Assembly (NCBI RefSeq): GCF_900637185.1
Contig: NZ_LR134352.1
Location: forward strand, 310,001 to 374,000
Direction of reading: 5' to 3'
Source: Nocardia asteroides
GTDB taxonomy: Bacteria; Actinomycetota; Actinomycetes; Mycobacteriales; Mycobacteriaceae
Length of the DNA: 64,000 bases
Shown here: positions 57,431-63,760 of the stretch, piece after piece
How positions within the stretch are numbered: position 1 is the stretch's first letter
Layout: each line of letters opens with the position of its first letter
The notes under the pieces: generated by a model
Database searches by the model: none
Told to the model about the DNA's origin: nothing
What the model saw: the letters and a program-made list of their open reading frames with translations, nothing else
Made by a program: the position numbers and the translations under genes

Positions 57431-58207
57431 TCAGTGGTTGCGGTAGGTGCCTTCTCTGGCCTTGGTGGCGGTGGTGGTGAGCATGGTGGTGAGGGTGGCG
57501 TGGAGGCGGGTGGGGGTGGTGGGTTTGGCGATGAAGGTGGCCTCGCCGTAGAAGACGTAGCGGCCGTCGCCGGTGAGGTCGTGCAGCTGGAAATCGTCGC
57601 GGCCCTCGGTGTGGCGGTTGTCGACGCTGCCGTGGGCGTAGACGCCGATGTGGGTGAGGGTGTCGGTGGGTTTGGCGAGGAAGGTCTCGAGTTGCTCGCG
57701 CGGGGTGGGGTTCCAGGCGTCGCGGACGTGCGGGCGGGGTGCCGCGAGTTCGGCTGCGGTGACCTTGATTTCGCGGCCGTTGCCGGGCGCGACCTTGGGT
57801 AACGTCGACAGGACGGCGGCGGCCAGCGTGTCCGGCGTCAGCAGATGCAGGGTGATGTCGCCGGCGTTGGCCTCCTCGCCCGGGGCCTGGACGGCGAGGG
57901 CGGCGTACCCGTCGCGGGTGCCGCCGTGCGCGCGGATCGTCCTGGTACCGCGGGCCATCCCCGCCACCTCGACGCGGGCGTGCGGGGCCAGCAGCGCGGC
58001 CACCGCGTAATCGAGGTTGGTGTCGAACTGGGCTTGCAGCGATTCGGCGGCCTTGCGGACCAGTCGATCGGTATCGGCACGGAAGTCGCTGGTATGGCAG
58101 TGATGGAGGGGGTAGGGCAGGACGTCGCGGCCCGTCGCCTCCCAGAGGGTGCGGAACTCCAGGGCGGTCAGGTGCCAGGTGTACACGGGAGATCTACTCT
58201 GCTGCAT
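57431..58207 (-). CDS. EspG family ESX secretion-associated chaperone
   Basis: The 258-residue protein fits EspG: N-terminal 'YTWHLTALEFRTLWEATG', 'APHARVEVAGMARGTRTIR', and a C-terminal 'TPREQLETFLAKPTDTLTHIGVYAHG' followed by 'DDFQLHDLTGDGRYVFYGEA'. EspG binds PPE proteins and delivers them to the type VII system. It lies 13 nt behind the PPE-like gene, its natural client. ATG 58207 is used; TTG 58213 is in frame and no ribosome site decides. Confidence 0.85.
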   Translation of the reverse strand: MQQSRSPVYTWHLTALEFRTLWEATGRDVLPYPLHHCHTSDFRADTDRLVRKAAESLQAQFDTNLDYAVAALLAPHARVEVAGMARGTRTIRAHGGTRDGYAALAVQAPGEEANAGDITLHLLTPDTLAAAVLSTLPKVAPGNGREIKVTAAELAAPRPHVRDAWNPTPREQLETFLAKPTDTLTHIGVYAHGSVDNRHTEGRDDFQLHDLTGDGRYVFYGEATFIAKPTTPTRLHATLTTMLTTTATKAREGTYRNH

Positions 58208-58220
58208 CGCCAATCAACGC

Positions 58221-59534
58221 CTAATCCGAGCCGATGACCGGCGGGACATTCGGGGGCAGGTCGCCCAGGCCGGTGAGTTCGTCGCCGTGCTCCTGGGTGA
58301 CGAGGTAGTCGGGAATGCCCTTGGTGGACTCGTCGTCCTTGCCGCCGCCCCGGGCGCCGGGCGACATCATGCCCGGCATCCCGGACCGCCCCGCCGCGCC
58401 GGAACCACCCGCGCGGACCGCGGCGGACGCGGCGCCGCCGGTCGACGGCGAGCCGGGCACCGCGCCACCGGGTGTGCCGCCGCCCGGTGTACCGCCGCCG
58501 GAGCCGCCCATGCCGGGAGCGCCGCCGCCGGAACCGGCCGGGCCACCCGAACCGGGCGTGGTGCCCGACGGGGTGGTCGACGCCGGGACGGTCGACTGGG
58601 GGGTGGTCGCGTCGTCGGTCGTCGAGTCGTCCGTGGTCGAGTCCTCGGTCGACGTGTCGTCGGTGGCGGAGTCGTCGGTCGTGCCGTCGTCGACAGCGGC
58701 CGGGTTCGTGGTCGCCGGGTCCGTCGTCTCGGGCTGGGTGGCGCCCGCGACGGTCGAGGCGGGCCCACCCGAGTCGGGTCGCGTCGCGCCGCCGCCGGTG
58801 CCGGGATCGGTCGCGTTCACCGCCTTCGGCACCGGGATCACCGGCACGCCCGTATCGGATTCGTGGATCACCGGCGCGTAGACCGTGCGCAGTACCCGGA
58901 CCGCCTCGGCCTTCGCGTTCCGTTCGGCGACATCGTCGTTGCGCCAGCCACGCCCGGCGAACCAGCTGTGCAGATTGGCGCCGCCACTGCGATGCTCCGG
59001 CGGATACGGCACGAGGTTCTTCGTCGGCTCCAGACCGGTGCGCAGTTCGTCCAGCTTGCTGCTGGTGAGCGCGGCCGCCGCCGTCACCCGCTTGCCGATG
59101 GTGTCGTATCCCGCCACGGTCGCCGCCGCCGCGGCCGCGGCCGCACCGGACCAGACATCCGGCGACGTACCGCGCGCGATCTGCTTGCGGAATTCGTCGA
59201 GCGAGGTGGAGTTGCGGGTCGACACCTGCTTCCAGGCGTCCACCAGGCCGTTGACGGTATCGAGATTGATCGCGTCGACCTTGGTCCGCAGCTCCGACAG
59301 GCTCGGCTTGTCGAATTCGTCTTCGCCGGTGACCGCCTTGCCGCGATACTCGCCGTCGAACCCGATGCCGTCGGCGTCGCGGCGGATCGTGCTGCGCTGG
59401 TCGTTGTACTTGTTCTGGACATCGGCCGCGTCGGGCGCCTCGGCCTCGCCGTTACCGGTGACCAGGTCGCTGACATTGCGCCGCCAGACCGAGAGGAAGT
59501 CCAGGCTCGCCAGGTGCGAGGTGGGGTTGACCAT
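58221..59534 (-). CDS. PPE/WXG-like type VII secretion substrate with Thr/Asp and Gly/Pro-rich tail
   Basis: The 437-residue protein has a helical N-terminal half (1-170) with 'TSPDVWSGAAAAAAAATVAG', where the W-x-G turn lies, then 'PYPPEHRSGGANLHSWFAGRGW', a Thr/Asp/Ser/Pro stretch (about 240-320), a Gly-rich stretch, and a conserved-looking end 'PDYLVTQEHGDELTGLGD'. It resembles actinobacterial PPE-like substrates paired with EspG. No signal peptide is present. The start is ATG 59534, 2 nt after the upstream gene. Confidence 0.78.
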   Translation of the reverse strand: MVNPTSHLASLDFLSVWRRNVSDLVTGNGEAEAPDAADVQNKYNDQRSTIRRDADGIGFDGEYRGKAVTGEDEFDKPSLSELRTKVDAINLDTVNGLVDAWKQVSTRNSTSLDEFRKQIARGTSPDVWSGAAAAAAAATVAGYDTIGKRVTAAAALTSSKLDELRTGLEPTKNLVPYPPEHRSGGANLHSWFAGRGWRNDDVAERNAKAEAVRVLRTVYAPVIHESDTGVPVIPVPKAVNATDPGTGGGATRPDSGGPASTVAGATQPETTDPATTNPAAVDDGTTDDSATDDTSTEDSTTDDSTTDDATTPQSTVPASTTPSGTTPGSGGPAGSGGGAPGMGGSGGGTPGGGTPGGAVPGSPSTGGAASAAVRAGGSGAAGRSGMPGMMSPGARGGGKDDESTKGIPDYLVTQEHGDELTGLGDLPPNVPPVIGSD

Positions 59535-59536
59535 CG

Positions 59537-59911
59537 CTACACCTGCCCCGCCGCGTAGTCGAGGGCGTTGGCGTTTTCGATATCGGTGCCGGTGAGGTGT
59601 TTGAAGGAGATCTTGAATACCTCCTGAAGTTGTTGCACCGCTTCGATATCGGCGAGCACCACCTCGTACAGCGAGTTCGGCTCGCCCTGGGCCTGCGCCC
59701 GGAACTTCGTTTCCAGATCCTTCGCCATCTGGAAATCGCCGAAACCGCTGACGTTCTGGGTGCGGCGCGCGAGATCGAGGATGTCGCGCAAATCGGTCAG
59801 CCGCTGATCGCAGGCTTTGAACATGTGATAGGCCGCCGCATCGTCATTGAGGTACACCTCACCGGCCTGCGCCTGTCCGAGCAACTGGCCGTACGGGTTC
59901 GGTTCCGCCAC
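59537..59911 (-). CDS. Small helical type VII secretion-associated protein
   Basis: The 124-residue all-helical protein ('GQLLGQAQAGEVYLNDDAAAY', 'QRLTDLRDILDLARRTQNVSG', 'NSLYEVVLADIEAVQQLQEVFK') probably partners the PPE-like protein as PE or WXG proteins do. GTG 59911 follows GGGAGA; the open frame extends 16 codons into the upstream gene region. It is in the same operon, 2 nt before the PPE-like gene. Confidence 0.72.
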   Translation of the reverse strand: MAEPNPYGQLLGQAQAGEVYLNDDAAAYHMFKACDQRLTDLRDILDLARRTQNVSGFGDFQMAKDLETKFRAQAQGEPNSLYEVVLADIEAVQQLQEVFKISFKHLTGTDIENANALDYAAGQV

Positions 59912-59927
59912 CGCGCGTCTCCCTCGG

Positions 59928-60452
59928 CTACTTCGGAAAAGTCGGCACGAGAACGGCACCGGTGCGCTGGAGGTAGTCGCACGGGTCGGCCAGGCCCTTG
60001 ATCAGCGGCGAGTTCAGTACCTGGAGCTGAACGACTCCTTGGGCAGCGGGGAAAACGGCGTCGCAGTCGAGGTTTCTGGTATCACCCTGCTCCTTGAACT
60101 GCCTACCTTGCCGACCGGCGATCGTGACGTCGGTGAAGTCGATGTTTCCGGGCTTCTGCTCGAAGTCCCGCACCGACTTGCTCGTCGAGTACACGGTCAG
60201 CGAGTACTCGCGACCCGACCATCCACAAATTTCCCACCCTGGCTGCGGAACGCCACCCAACCCCGCTTCCTCGGTTCCCGGATCCACCCCCGCCGCCTTC
60301 AACACCTCGTCGGGAATCTCCGCGCACGGATTCCACAGCACCGGCTTCGCCGTAGTGGTCACCCCCCGGGACGAGGTCTCCCCCGACTCGCACCCGGCCA
60401 CCCCCACCACCGCCACACCTGCGATCACCAGCGCCGTCACCGCGCGATTCAT
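59928..60452 (-). CDS. DUF3558 lipoprotein
   Basis: The 174-residue protein has a signal peptide with lipobox 'VAVVGVAGCESGE' (Cys21) and the DUF3558 pattern 'PVLWNPCAEIPDEVLKAAGVDPGTE' with 'GWEICGWSG', 'LDCDAVFPA' and 'DPCDYLQRTGAVLVPTFP', where conserved cysteines lie. DUF3558 lipoproteins often accompany type VII genes in Nocardia. GGAAGGGG precedes ATG 60452. It is the first gene of the cassette ending with espG. Confidence 0.9.
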   Translation of the reverse strand: MNRAVTALVIAGVAVVGVAGCESGETSSRGVTTTAKPVLWNPCAEIPDEVLKAAGVDPGTEEAGLGGVPQPGWEICGWSGREYSLTVYSTSKSVRDFEQKPGNIDFTDVTIAGRQGRQFKEQGDTRNLDCDAVFPAAQGVVQLQVLNSPLIKGLADPCDYLQRTGAVLVPTFPK

Positions 60453-61929: not shown

Positions 61930-63264
61930 TCAAGACAGAAATGCTCCTGCTGTTGTGCGCATGCCAGTCGAATCCACAATCTCCGCGGCGGCTATCAGCG
62001 ACGCGTCGGGCGATCGCACCAGCGCTACCGGCATCGCACCGCCGATTCCCGGATTCGCCGTGATCCACCACCCGGCCGCCTCCCATGGCCGCGCGTTTGC
62101 TTTCAGCACAACATTGATGCGTCGGACAACTGGGTGCACCTGCCCACCGTCGACGTCGAGCTGGAAGCTGGGGAATCGGTAAGTTCCACCGACCCGCAAG
62201 CCGATGAGCTCGTCCCGAGATCGGAGGTACCGCACCGCGCTAGCCCTTCTTTTCGGCACGTCGCTGGTATCGACCACCAGACCCACCTCAGCAGTGGACA
62301 TACACTCGAAGTGACGTAAGGTATCGCGCTGCTCCTTCGAGAGCGGGTCAGCCGGTGGAACGTACGACGGTGACCAGAGCGCTTCAGCCGCCCATCCCTT
62401 CGGGCACCCCAGGTGGGAATCGGGGAGTCCGAGTTTGCGGAAGTCGACTGTGACGAGCTCGAAGGCTTGCCTGCGCCAGGTCGATGCGGGGTCGAGTTGA
62501 GCAGTAAGGAAGGCCAGCACTGCCAACGAGGAATATATCCGCGACTTCGGCGCCGGACCTGCCGCATGAGCCAGGTCGGGAACACCGTCCAATCGGCCGA
62601 GTTGCTCGACCATGTTCCTGTTCCACAGCCGACCATGGTGTGCGCAGATGTTGCGCACATACGCCAGATTTGCGATCCAGCTGACCAGCGCGGCGCCGTC
62701 ACCATCACAGTCCGCATCGAACACTCCGAACAACTCGGCGATCGAGTTCTTCTGGAGCCGCTTCGTCCCCCGGACCAGCGTCACCAAGCTCCCGAAGGTG
62801 AGCAGCTCGGTTACCACCCAGATAGGTAGCGGGAGACCATATCTGGCCTTGAAATGAGCGACGAAATCCTCCCTTGACCGGTCTTCTTCAGCGCGAACCC
62901 TCGACAACCACTTGACGTGCTCGCTACCGAGCCAATGTGATCGACTCTCGATCGGCCGATGCTCGTCGAATCCGGTGAATGACGGTTCGAGTGCCGCTGG
63001 ATCGAGATGGGCGAAGGCTCCCGTCTCGCCGAGTACGTAACCGAGTCGCATCCGCAAAGCGACCTCGACTCGTTCGATCCCGTCGAGAACGATCAGGCGC
63101 AACCGCCGATCGAACTCGTAGAGATCGACCACCTGATCAAAGGTGGTTCCGTCGACAAAGAAGTCGCCACGCAGCGCGTCATGTTCCCGGATAGGGCCGT
63201 AGTCTGCGGCATGCTCGCGGAAGATGTACCAATAGCCACTCAATCGGTAGTACCCGATGGCCAA
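61930..63264 (-). CDS. Abi family (Abi_2) HEPN protein fused to a C-terminal antitoxin-like domain
   Basis: The frame from TTG 63264 gives 444 residues. The N-terminal half is Abi_2: 'IGYYRLSGYWYIFREHA', 'LYEFDRRLRLIVLDGIERVE' and the HEPN motif 'YVRNICAHHGRLWNRN' (Arg204, His209), typical of abortive-infection RNases. The C-terminal part (about 320-430) resembles MbcA/ParS/Xre-type antitoxins: 'VRYLRSRDELIGLRVGGTYR' and 'WWITANPGIGGAMPVALV'. Fusion of the two is unusual. Coding similarity continues upstream to about 63387 ('KPFKTLPEQVGLLRSRGLAI'), but no ATG, GTG or TTG lies there. GC content looks lower than flanks, consistent with transfer. Single gene; converges with the MarR gene. Confidence 0.85.
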   Translation of the reverse strand: MAIGYYRLSGYWYIFREHAADYGPIREHDALRGDFFVDGTTFDQVVDLYEFDRRLRLIVLDGIERVEVALRMRLGYVLGETGAFAHLDPAALEPSFTGFDEHRPIESRSHWLGSEHVKWLSRVRAEEDRSREDFVAHFKARYGLPLPIWVVTELLTFGSLVTLVRGTKRLQKNSIAELFGVFDADCDGDGAALVSWIANLAYVRNICAHHGRLWNRNMVEQLGRLDGVPDLAHAAGPAPKSRIYSSLAVLAFLTAQLDPASTWRRQAFELVTVDFRKLGLPDSHLGCPKGWAAEALWSPSYVPPADPLSKEQRDTLRHFECMSTAEVGLVVDTSDVPKRRASAVRYLRSRDELIGLRVGGTYRFPSFQLDVDGGQVHPVVRRINVVLKANARPWEAAGWWITANPGIGGAMPVALVRSPDASLIAAAEIVDSTGMRTTAGAFLS

Positions 63265-63760
63265 CAGCCGCGCCCTCGCGGCCGACTCGTCCGCGATTGC
63301 CAGGCCGCGTGACCGAAGCAGGCCAACCTGCTCAGGAAGTGTCTTGAACGGTTTTCCGTAGGTGGTGACGAGCGAGCGCGTACTGATGACTCAACCCCCC
63401 CTGCTAATATGCAACTACATGGCCGATCGTCCACTCCCGCCCCAGGGAGGGGCGGTCGGTTCTCTTGTCGAAGCACAATCTGTGGCTACAGGCGAGCGCG
63501 AGGCTCCCGCATCGATACTGCGCACACCTCGTCGTGGCAGTGTAGGCCGCGGCGACGAGCACGCGAACAAGATCACCGACGGGTATCGATGACGGCGACA
63601 GCGCGCCAAGCCGCGATCGGCGGCATACGATCCGTCCGGCGACCGGGACCGTGACGAGCATCCCTGCACCCGACGAGGCGTTTTTAGGGATACTGGAGTC
63701 GGGGCCCGCCGCGAGGCGGGGCCACATTGCAGCAATTCCAGGGAAAGGGAGCTTGACGAC
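63265..63760. other. Region upstream of the Abi gene and globin gene
   Basis: 63265-63387 (minus) is the probable N-terminal extension of the Abi protein without a standard start. At 63395-63401 a run of seven C (G7 on the minus strand) could serve as a ribosome site, 7 nt before ATC 63387-63385; TATTAG at 63410-63405 could be the -10. From 63420 to 63760 no gene is convincing on either strand; TTTTTAGGGATACT near 63681-63694 and GGGAAAGGGA (63741-63750) are the promoter and ribosome site of the globin gene. Confidence 0.55.

Follow-up and report, generated by a model that had tools for sequence, protein, structure and literature searches.

A HEPN protein of Nocardia asteroides fused to an antitoxin-like domain, with a predicted hairpin RNA gene on the opposite strand

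In a 64,000-nucleotide stretch of Nocardia asteroides DNA (contig NZ_LR134352.1; hereafter the window), we observed a gene, abi, for an AbiF/AbiD-type HEPN protein that carries an extra C-terminal domain of about 120 residues, and directly upstream of it a predicted hairpin RNA gene on the opposite strand (Table 1). The observation of a HEPN protein with an additional C-terminal domain, made in the original prediction, is thereby confirmed. We read the locus as a diverged type III-like AbiF system in which the opposite-strand hairpin RNA would serve as antitoxin and the fused domain as a second control, and we put the probability of this reading at about 0.5. In its favor are the HEPN motif, the match to the solved structure 8VZ6, the kinship of the C-terminal domain, the lack of a RES gene that could partner this domain in the Nocardia genomes searched, the hairpin at all eight open-frame Nocardia loci, the strand preference of its pairing, sense copies of the RNA on plasmids, stem covariation and a −10 element. 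It is weakened by the lack of covariation within Nocardia alone, by one covariation measure that stays within the range of shuffles, by five of 15 plasmid loci without an RNA match, by the absence of the Rfam abiF RNA and by the lack of a clear start codon in the window copy.

Table 1. Features of the abi locus and related features elsewhere (window coordinates unless a locus handle precedes them)
Feature	Position	Strand	Basis
abi, AbiF/AbiD-type HEPN protein with fused C-terminal domain	61930..63387	−	open frame, Abi_2, PADLOC AbiD, full-length homologues
C-terminal domain, kin of antitoxins partnering RES toxins	61963..62337	−	extent of profile A2, profile comparison, RES neighbors of relatives
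Abi_2/HEPN domain, residues 41-256	62620..63267	−	Pfam PF07751
HEPN motif RNICAH, residues 245-250	62638..62655	−	alignment of 28 homologues
Extended −10 element TGC-TAATAT of the RNA gene	63402..63410	+	TANNNT at matching distance in 25/26 RNA genes
Predicted hairpin RNA gene, ~50 nt, U-rich end	63418..63470	+ (opposite abi)	covariance model, strand pairing, covariation
39-nt hairpin of the RNA	63422..63460	+	pattern search of Nocardia genomes
Solitary RNA genes	1501-1539 of L092, L095, L098, L099 and L101		TANNNT kept in 4/5
RAMA proteins, weak VapB/SeqA-like N terminus	L105:7337-7771, L106:7135-7596, L107:7521-7943, L108:6747-7172, L110:7933-8427		

The fused protein and its two domains

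Read from stop to stop, the abi frame contains no stop between 63390 and 61930 and comprises 485 codons counted from 63387. Its first in-frame ATG, GTG or TTG is the TTG at 63264, where the deposited 444-residue protein (P0001) starts; this form is short by 41 residues of the conserved frame. At the codon where most aligned homologues have their initial methionine, the window copy has GTC, and there is no in-frame ATG, GTG or TTG upstream of that codon, so the start of this copy is uncertain. Given the GTC codon and the 41 conserved-frame residues missing from the deposited form, expression of the window copy may be weak, or the copy may be in decay. The GC content over abi is about 0.59-0.67, compared with about 0.69-0.75 in most neighboring intervals, in agreement with the lower GC noted originally, and the interval 59250-60250 is likewise low (0.63). 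The gene is flanked on one side by a MarR-type gene and on the other by one that encodes globin, FAD and NAD domains. Elsewhere in the window, at 57431-59534, an EspG-family gene (2.6e-28) is followed by a minus-strand upstream gene with a weak PPE match below the cut-off, and this EspG/PPE-like pair forms an ESX-secretion-like group.

The N-terminal part bears out the earlier description of an Abi HEPN nuclease-like protein. The window protein matches Abi_2 (PF07751) with an E value of 1.2e-49 and 169.6 bits against a cut-off of 25.6, and PADLOC assigns it to AbiD (E 2.1e-51). No NCBIfam family matches the window protein, and Abi_2 is its only Pfam match at E up to 10. The HMM check suggested at the outset thus succeeds for the Abi_2 part, with no match for the antitoxin part at that threshold. 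All 28 aligned homologues keep the R, N, C, A and H of the RNICAH motif without exception; the motif is the one originally placed at residues 204-209, with the TTG at 63264 taken as residue 1. The sole solved-structure match is 8VZ6 (E 6.8e-35), which an excerpt of a review (PMC12737573) identifies as PbAbiF with its ncRNA.

The C-terminal sequence patterns quoted in the original prediction are present in the window protein, and P, F, Q, N and W residues occupy invariant columns in the 20 C-terminal domains that we aligned (20 of 28 parts; eight were omitted, including two that are shortened or frame-shifted). Among these 20 sequences, eight match Xre_MbcA_ParS_C (PF09722) weakly in Pfam, with a best E value of 0.003, and none exceeds the curated cut-off (an E value of 0.0036 corresponds to 17.7 bits against 24.5); the window protein's own domain is unmatched. 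A profile search of a protein database with the C-terminal domain returned 29 proteins, and a genome search with profile A2 found the domain in 25 of 396 actinobacterial genomes, the window's included. By profile–profile comparison, the domain matches ten RES-linked proteins at 99% and four Xre-type proteins, two of them over the Pfam cut-off, at 83%, with three controls at 0.1-0.2%. Thirteen of the 30 domain loci outside the fusion (L025, L033-L061; two overlap) entered a neighbor test, in which a RES toxin adjoins the stand-alone domain protein at ten; this fraction is not a rate for all 30 loci, because most of the 13 were picked for a RES-sized ORF directly downstream. The neighbor is not a RES toxin at the other three (L040, L042 and L034). 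Kinship to RES/Xre antitoxins, as first claimed, is therefore supported by the profile comparison and by the RES neighbors, while judged by Pfam alone the claim came close to falling.

Around these stand-alone relatives, we also observe a domain protein adjoining a CHAT-domain ORF at L034 and, at L035, one beside a RES toxin, after which comes a weak TPR-S match. At L025:766-1815, a FPAWQFD-type domain comes first and is followed by what appears by eye to be a TetR-like part, a different architecture.

A search of 21 Nocardia genomes, seven of them with the fusion, found no RES gene. We read the fused domain as a probable member of the RES-toxin antitoxin family that has no RES partner remaining, and cross-talk in trans between the domain and RES toxins is unlikely, given that no RES gene was found. 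In the RES-partner relatives, an HTH-like part precedes the conserved FQF region. The fused domain aligns there by eye, with this part reduced, and none of the HTH families in Pfam matches it.

A hairpin RNA gene in Nocardia and on plasmids

The predicted RNA gene runs from the promoter element through the hairpin to the U-rich end. The 39-nt hairpin is common to all eight open-frame fused Nocardia loci (the window, L009 and L014-L019, with L019 counted as open despite an in-frame gap near the N terminus), within flanking DNA that has diverged. With up to three mismatches allowed, 13 of 148 Nocardia genomes contain the hairpin pattern, each in a single copy, and the backward control gives 0, which rules out a general genomic repeat. 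Eight of the 13 copies lie at the fused gene and five are without abi. For the five genomes with a solitary hairpin (G017, G067, G078, G108 and G113), the protein search gave no match, and there is no Abi-like sequence within about 1.5 kb of the hairpin (best E 0.06). In G114, a transposase-like stretch separates the hairpin from abi, which is frame-shifted, and in G087, the one fused locus that lacks the hairpin, the coding part is broken.

In Nocardia, standard pairs fill 98.6% of pair cells on the strand opposite abi and 85.1% on the abi strand, which rules out the latter as the RNA strand in this genus. Stem covariation within Nocardia alone shows no excess over shuffles. A covariance model built from 14 Nocardia copies (R1) scores 78 bits at the window, and across 85 sources searched, scores of at least 77 bits are confined to the window and the other fused loci. 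Among 298 genomes of the order, R1 matches 24 beyond the window's own at 24-39 bits, and the best of these matches appears by eye to be an unrelated intergenic stretch. A TANNNT element is found 5-9 nt before the model start at 25 of 26 RNA genes, compared with 1.4% at random places, and the extended form TGN-TANNNT occurs at the same distance in 8/8 open-frame Nocardia loci.

The Rfam abiF RNA (RF03085) is absent at E up to 10 from the window and nine other fused Nocardia loci, and has no match at 15 plasmid loci. Just upstream of abi, it is found at seven of 41 unfused loci scanned (L003, L022, L066, L063 weakly, L005, L006 and L081), four of them over the gathering score, and it is absent at the remaining 34. 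Because it is missing from most unfused loci too, its absence is no marker of the fusion.

On actinobacterial plasmids, RNA of the same family lies in sense directly before abi at ten of the 15 loci, fused or unfused. R1 detects it before fused abi at L180 (54.8 bits), L181 (50.6), L182 (31.0) and L183 (18.0) and before unfused abi at L184 (34.1), L186 (34.0) and L185 (29.5). A second model, R2, finds sense copies before the unfused genes of L188, L189 and L190 at 46-49 bits, these being close kin of the model copies, and re-detects L183 at 24.3 bits. Its sense matches at L002 and L010 (20-23 bits) are near noise, as judged from L023, where one of two matches at 20-21 bits falls downstream of the gene. 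L187 is unmatched by both models, and R2 likewise gives no match at L191, L192, L193 or L194. A similar hairpin is visible by eye before abi at L187.

Across 20 aligned copies from Nocardia and the sense relatives, counted without L183 and without weak opposite-strand matches of the same hairpins, eight of 16 stem pairs (19 cells) are changed on both sides, in an alignment that was fitted to the structure and is thus biased in favor of covariation. None of 500 shuffles equals these pair and cell counts and slid controls give 0-2 pairs, while further pair types show no excess over shuffles (216/500).

The hairpin conserved at the Nocardia fusions, and the RNA before both fused and unfused plasmid abi genes, eliminated one candidate, in which the fused domain had taken the place of an RNA antitoxin. 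With an RNA gene at the fused loci, the fusion did not displace the RNA, and the proposal of a self-contained protein loses its support: the hairpin RNA gene lies upstream at each of the eight open-frame Nocardia loci examined, and kin of the RNA precede unfused abi as well.

Spread and descent of the fusion

A search with the window protein gave 1333 matches. Among the best 120, at least 18 Nocardia-named proteins cover 83-97% of the query (P0010 and P0021, within this set, are shortened), a few long metagenomic proteins are present, and most others cover about 68%. Given this coverage by the Nocardia homologues and the long metagenomic proteins, the fused architecture is real and conserved, and it is also found at four plasmid loci (L180, L181, L182 and L183). 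Within Nocardia, it occurs in nine of 150 genomes, two of the copies being broken. This distribution and the relatives on plasmids lend indirect support to the mobility suggested originally. Abi_2 relatives occur in 81 phage records, none covering 80% of the query, and at 33 Abi loci on viral contigs the longest match extends to residue 385. Profile A2 at E up to 1 detects no C-terminal domain in the 33 viral loci or in the unfused plasmid loci L184-L187. The open-access papers listed in PMC searches name, in their titles and abstract openings, neither such a fusion nor a reversed AbiF RNA.

In a midpoint-rooted tree of the HEPN part with local support values, the Nocardia fusions group as a single clade (support 1.0) whose sister comprises the fused L180, L181 and P0023 (0.976), and this group as a whole is placed next to, and partly within, unfused proteins of Rhodococcus and Gordonia. 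A second deep group, mostly fused, contains L182 and L183, so that fused proteins stand in two places. In the tree of the C-terminal part, no single clade unites the fused domains to the exclusion of other proteins; the label "RES-partner" on L034, L036, L040, L042 and L046 in that tree is given without a demonstrated RES neighbor. At the nine fused Nocardia loci with the RNA, its direction is reversed, whereas it runs in sense at L180 and L181, at those unfused plasmid loci that gave a match, and at L182 and L183. A single inversion of the RNA gene at the base of the Nocardia clade would explain these orientations.

The surroundings of the fused genes vary. A small RAMA-domain protein is encoded immediately upstream of the RNA gene, or of the site where that gene would lie, at five of nine Nocardia loci; G114 is apparently a sixth, by eye, and the protein is absent at the window, G068 and G127. 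In G068 (L111:5240-6995), the abi unit adjoins an exonuclease III-like gene and terminates in a 101-bp, 93% copy of the 3′ end of that gene, a duplication that suggests insertion of the unit at this site. At L014, L016, L018 and L019, a leader frame of about 16 codons, recognized by eye, seems to overlap the abi start with its end (ATGA/GTGA). L180 comes from plasmid pAO1 of Paenarthrobacter nicotinovorans, where the fused abi lies beside a gene annotated as a Pycsar system effector and two cyclase-domain genes.

Possible mode of action and comparison with known systems

AbiF proteins are HEPN RNases neutralized by a small RNA, according to an excerpt of PMC12737573. By analogy with this family, the free HEPN protein of the window would cut RNA, with a toxic or abortive outcome, and the trigger would probably be phage. 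As with AbiF/AbiFr and RCd22, the ~50-nt hairpin RNA may be transcribed from its own opposite-strand promoter, bind the HEPN protein and hold it off. In Clostridioides difficile, RCd22 is reported to end transcription in cis and to bind the toxin in trans, with protein and generally not mRNA as its target (passages of PMC12373285). In the plasmid relatives, a sense RNA just before abi could likewise lower abi transcription by attenuation in cis; with the RNA turned round, as in the Nocardia clade, only trans action or antisense pairing would be left. The reversal would abolish cis action, but the RNA has hardly changed among Nocardia, and we therefore take trans action as the function that this RNA has probably kept. 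The clade thus offers a natural test of cis versus trans action, with cis attenuation gone and the RNA persisting. The C-terminal domain most likely adds a second control, whether through contact with the HEPN part or through DNA binding by its small HTH-like part; a type II antitoxin-like domain on an RNA-controlled toxin would unite two kinds of control in one system. A tentative extension, which we would sooner doubt than accept, is a doubly locked HEPN toxin whose RNA gene underwent a single inversion at the root of the Nocardia clade and became trans-only, with the RES-antitoxin domain as the second lock and the solitary RNAs giving protection as a form of RNA anti-addiction. These solitary copies would parallel the orphan antitoxin proteins known from other systems.

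The fused domain might instead serve DNA binding, autoregulation or trigger sensing and not restraint of the toxin, a possible reading that we do not favor. It draws on the HTH-like part of the RES-partner relatives, with which the fused domain aligns by eye, and on Xre-RES of Pseudomonas putida, which binds inverted repeats of its own promoter (excerpt of PMC12204516); against it count the reduction of that part, the unmatched HTH families and the lack of an identified operator. It is improbable that the domain is the true cis antitoxin and the hairpin only a terminator or repeat. Although the domain is kin to antitoxins that partner RES toxins, the hairpin is GC-rich and followed by a U-rich end, and the weak R1 matches elsewhere include an unrelated intergenic hairpin, conservation extends to the sequence and not to the stem alone, a −10 element precedes nearly all copies, no Nocardia genome has more than one, and the RNA also stands before abi genes that lack the domain.

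The position of the Nocardia RNA, directly upstream and on the strand opposite abi, would also suit a type I-like antisense RNA acting on the leader of the abi mRNA, which from this position would have to be long and complementary to the RNA. We give this little credence, since the RNA of the plasmid relatives runs in sense and cannot be antisense to abi, no abi promoter was found upstream of the RNA gene, and the binding of protein by RCd22 in the cited passages of PMC12373285 speaks for another kind of target. That the window copy is simply a decaying gene, ordinary in function, is unlikely: GTC stands at the usual start with no ATG, GTG or TTG before residue 42 and two other Nocardia copies are visibly broken, but the 485-codon frame is open and the catalytic motif, both domains and the RNA gene are intact.

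The closest known systems are AbiF-AbiFr (PbAbiF, 8VZ6) and AbiFCd-RCd22 of C. difficile, which share with the window the HEPN/Abi_2 domain, the RNxxxH motif and a structured RNA gene directly upstream. In those systems the RNA runs in the direction of the gene and has the Rfam abiF motif (RCd22), whereas here it belongs to another sequence class and lies on the opposite strand, and the window protein has the extra antitoxin-like domain. Among the features of a type III-like AbiF system, the window has Abi_2, RNxxxH and a predicted RNA gene upstream, and departs from it in the direction of the RNA relative to abi. The Rfam abiF RNA (RF03085) is likewise a short hairpin directly upstream of abi, although its sequence model finds no match at the window. 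AbiF RNAs have been proposed as forerunners of Cas13 guides (excerpt of PMC12737573). Stand-alone AbiD/AbiF proteins have the HEPN/Abi_2 domain and the plasmid occurrence of relatives in common with the window protein; they are about 330 residues long and have no tail. In a HEPN survey (PMC3710099), the Abi2/AbiF/AbiD row contains no such fusion, and other fusions are given for the wider Abi2/Swt1 group. The kin of the C-terminal domain are found in RES-Xre modules (P. putida Xre and MbcA of Mycobacterium tuberculosis, excerpt of PMC12204516), whereas the window, with no RES toxin near, has this domain fused to a HEPN protein.
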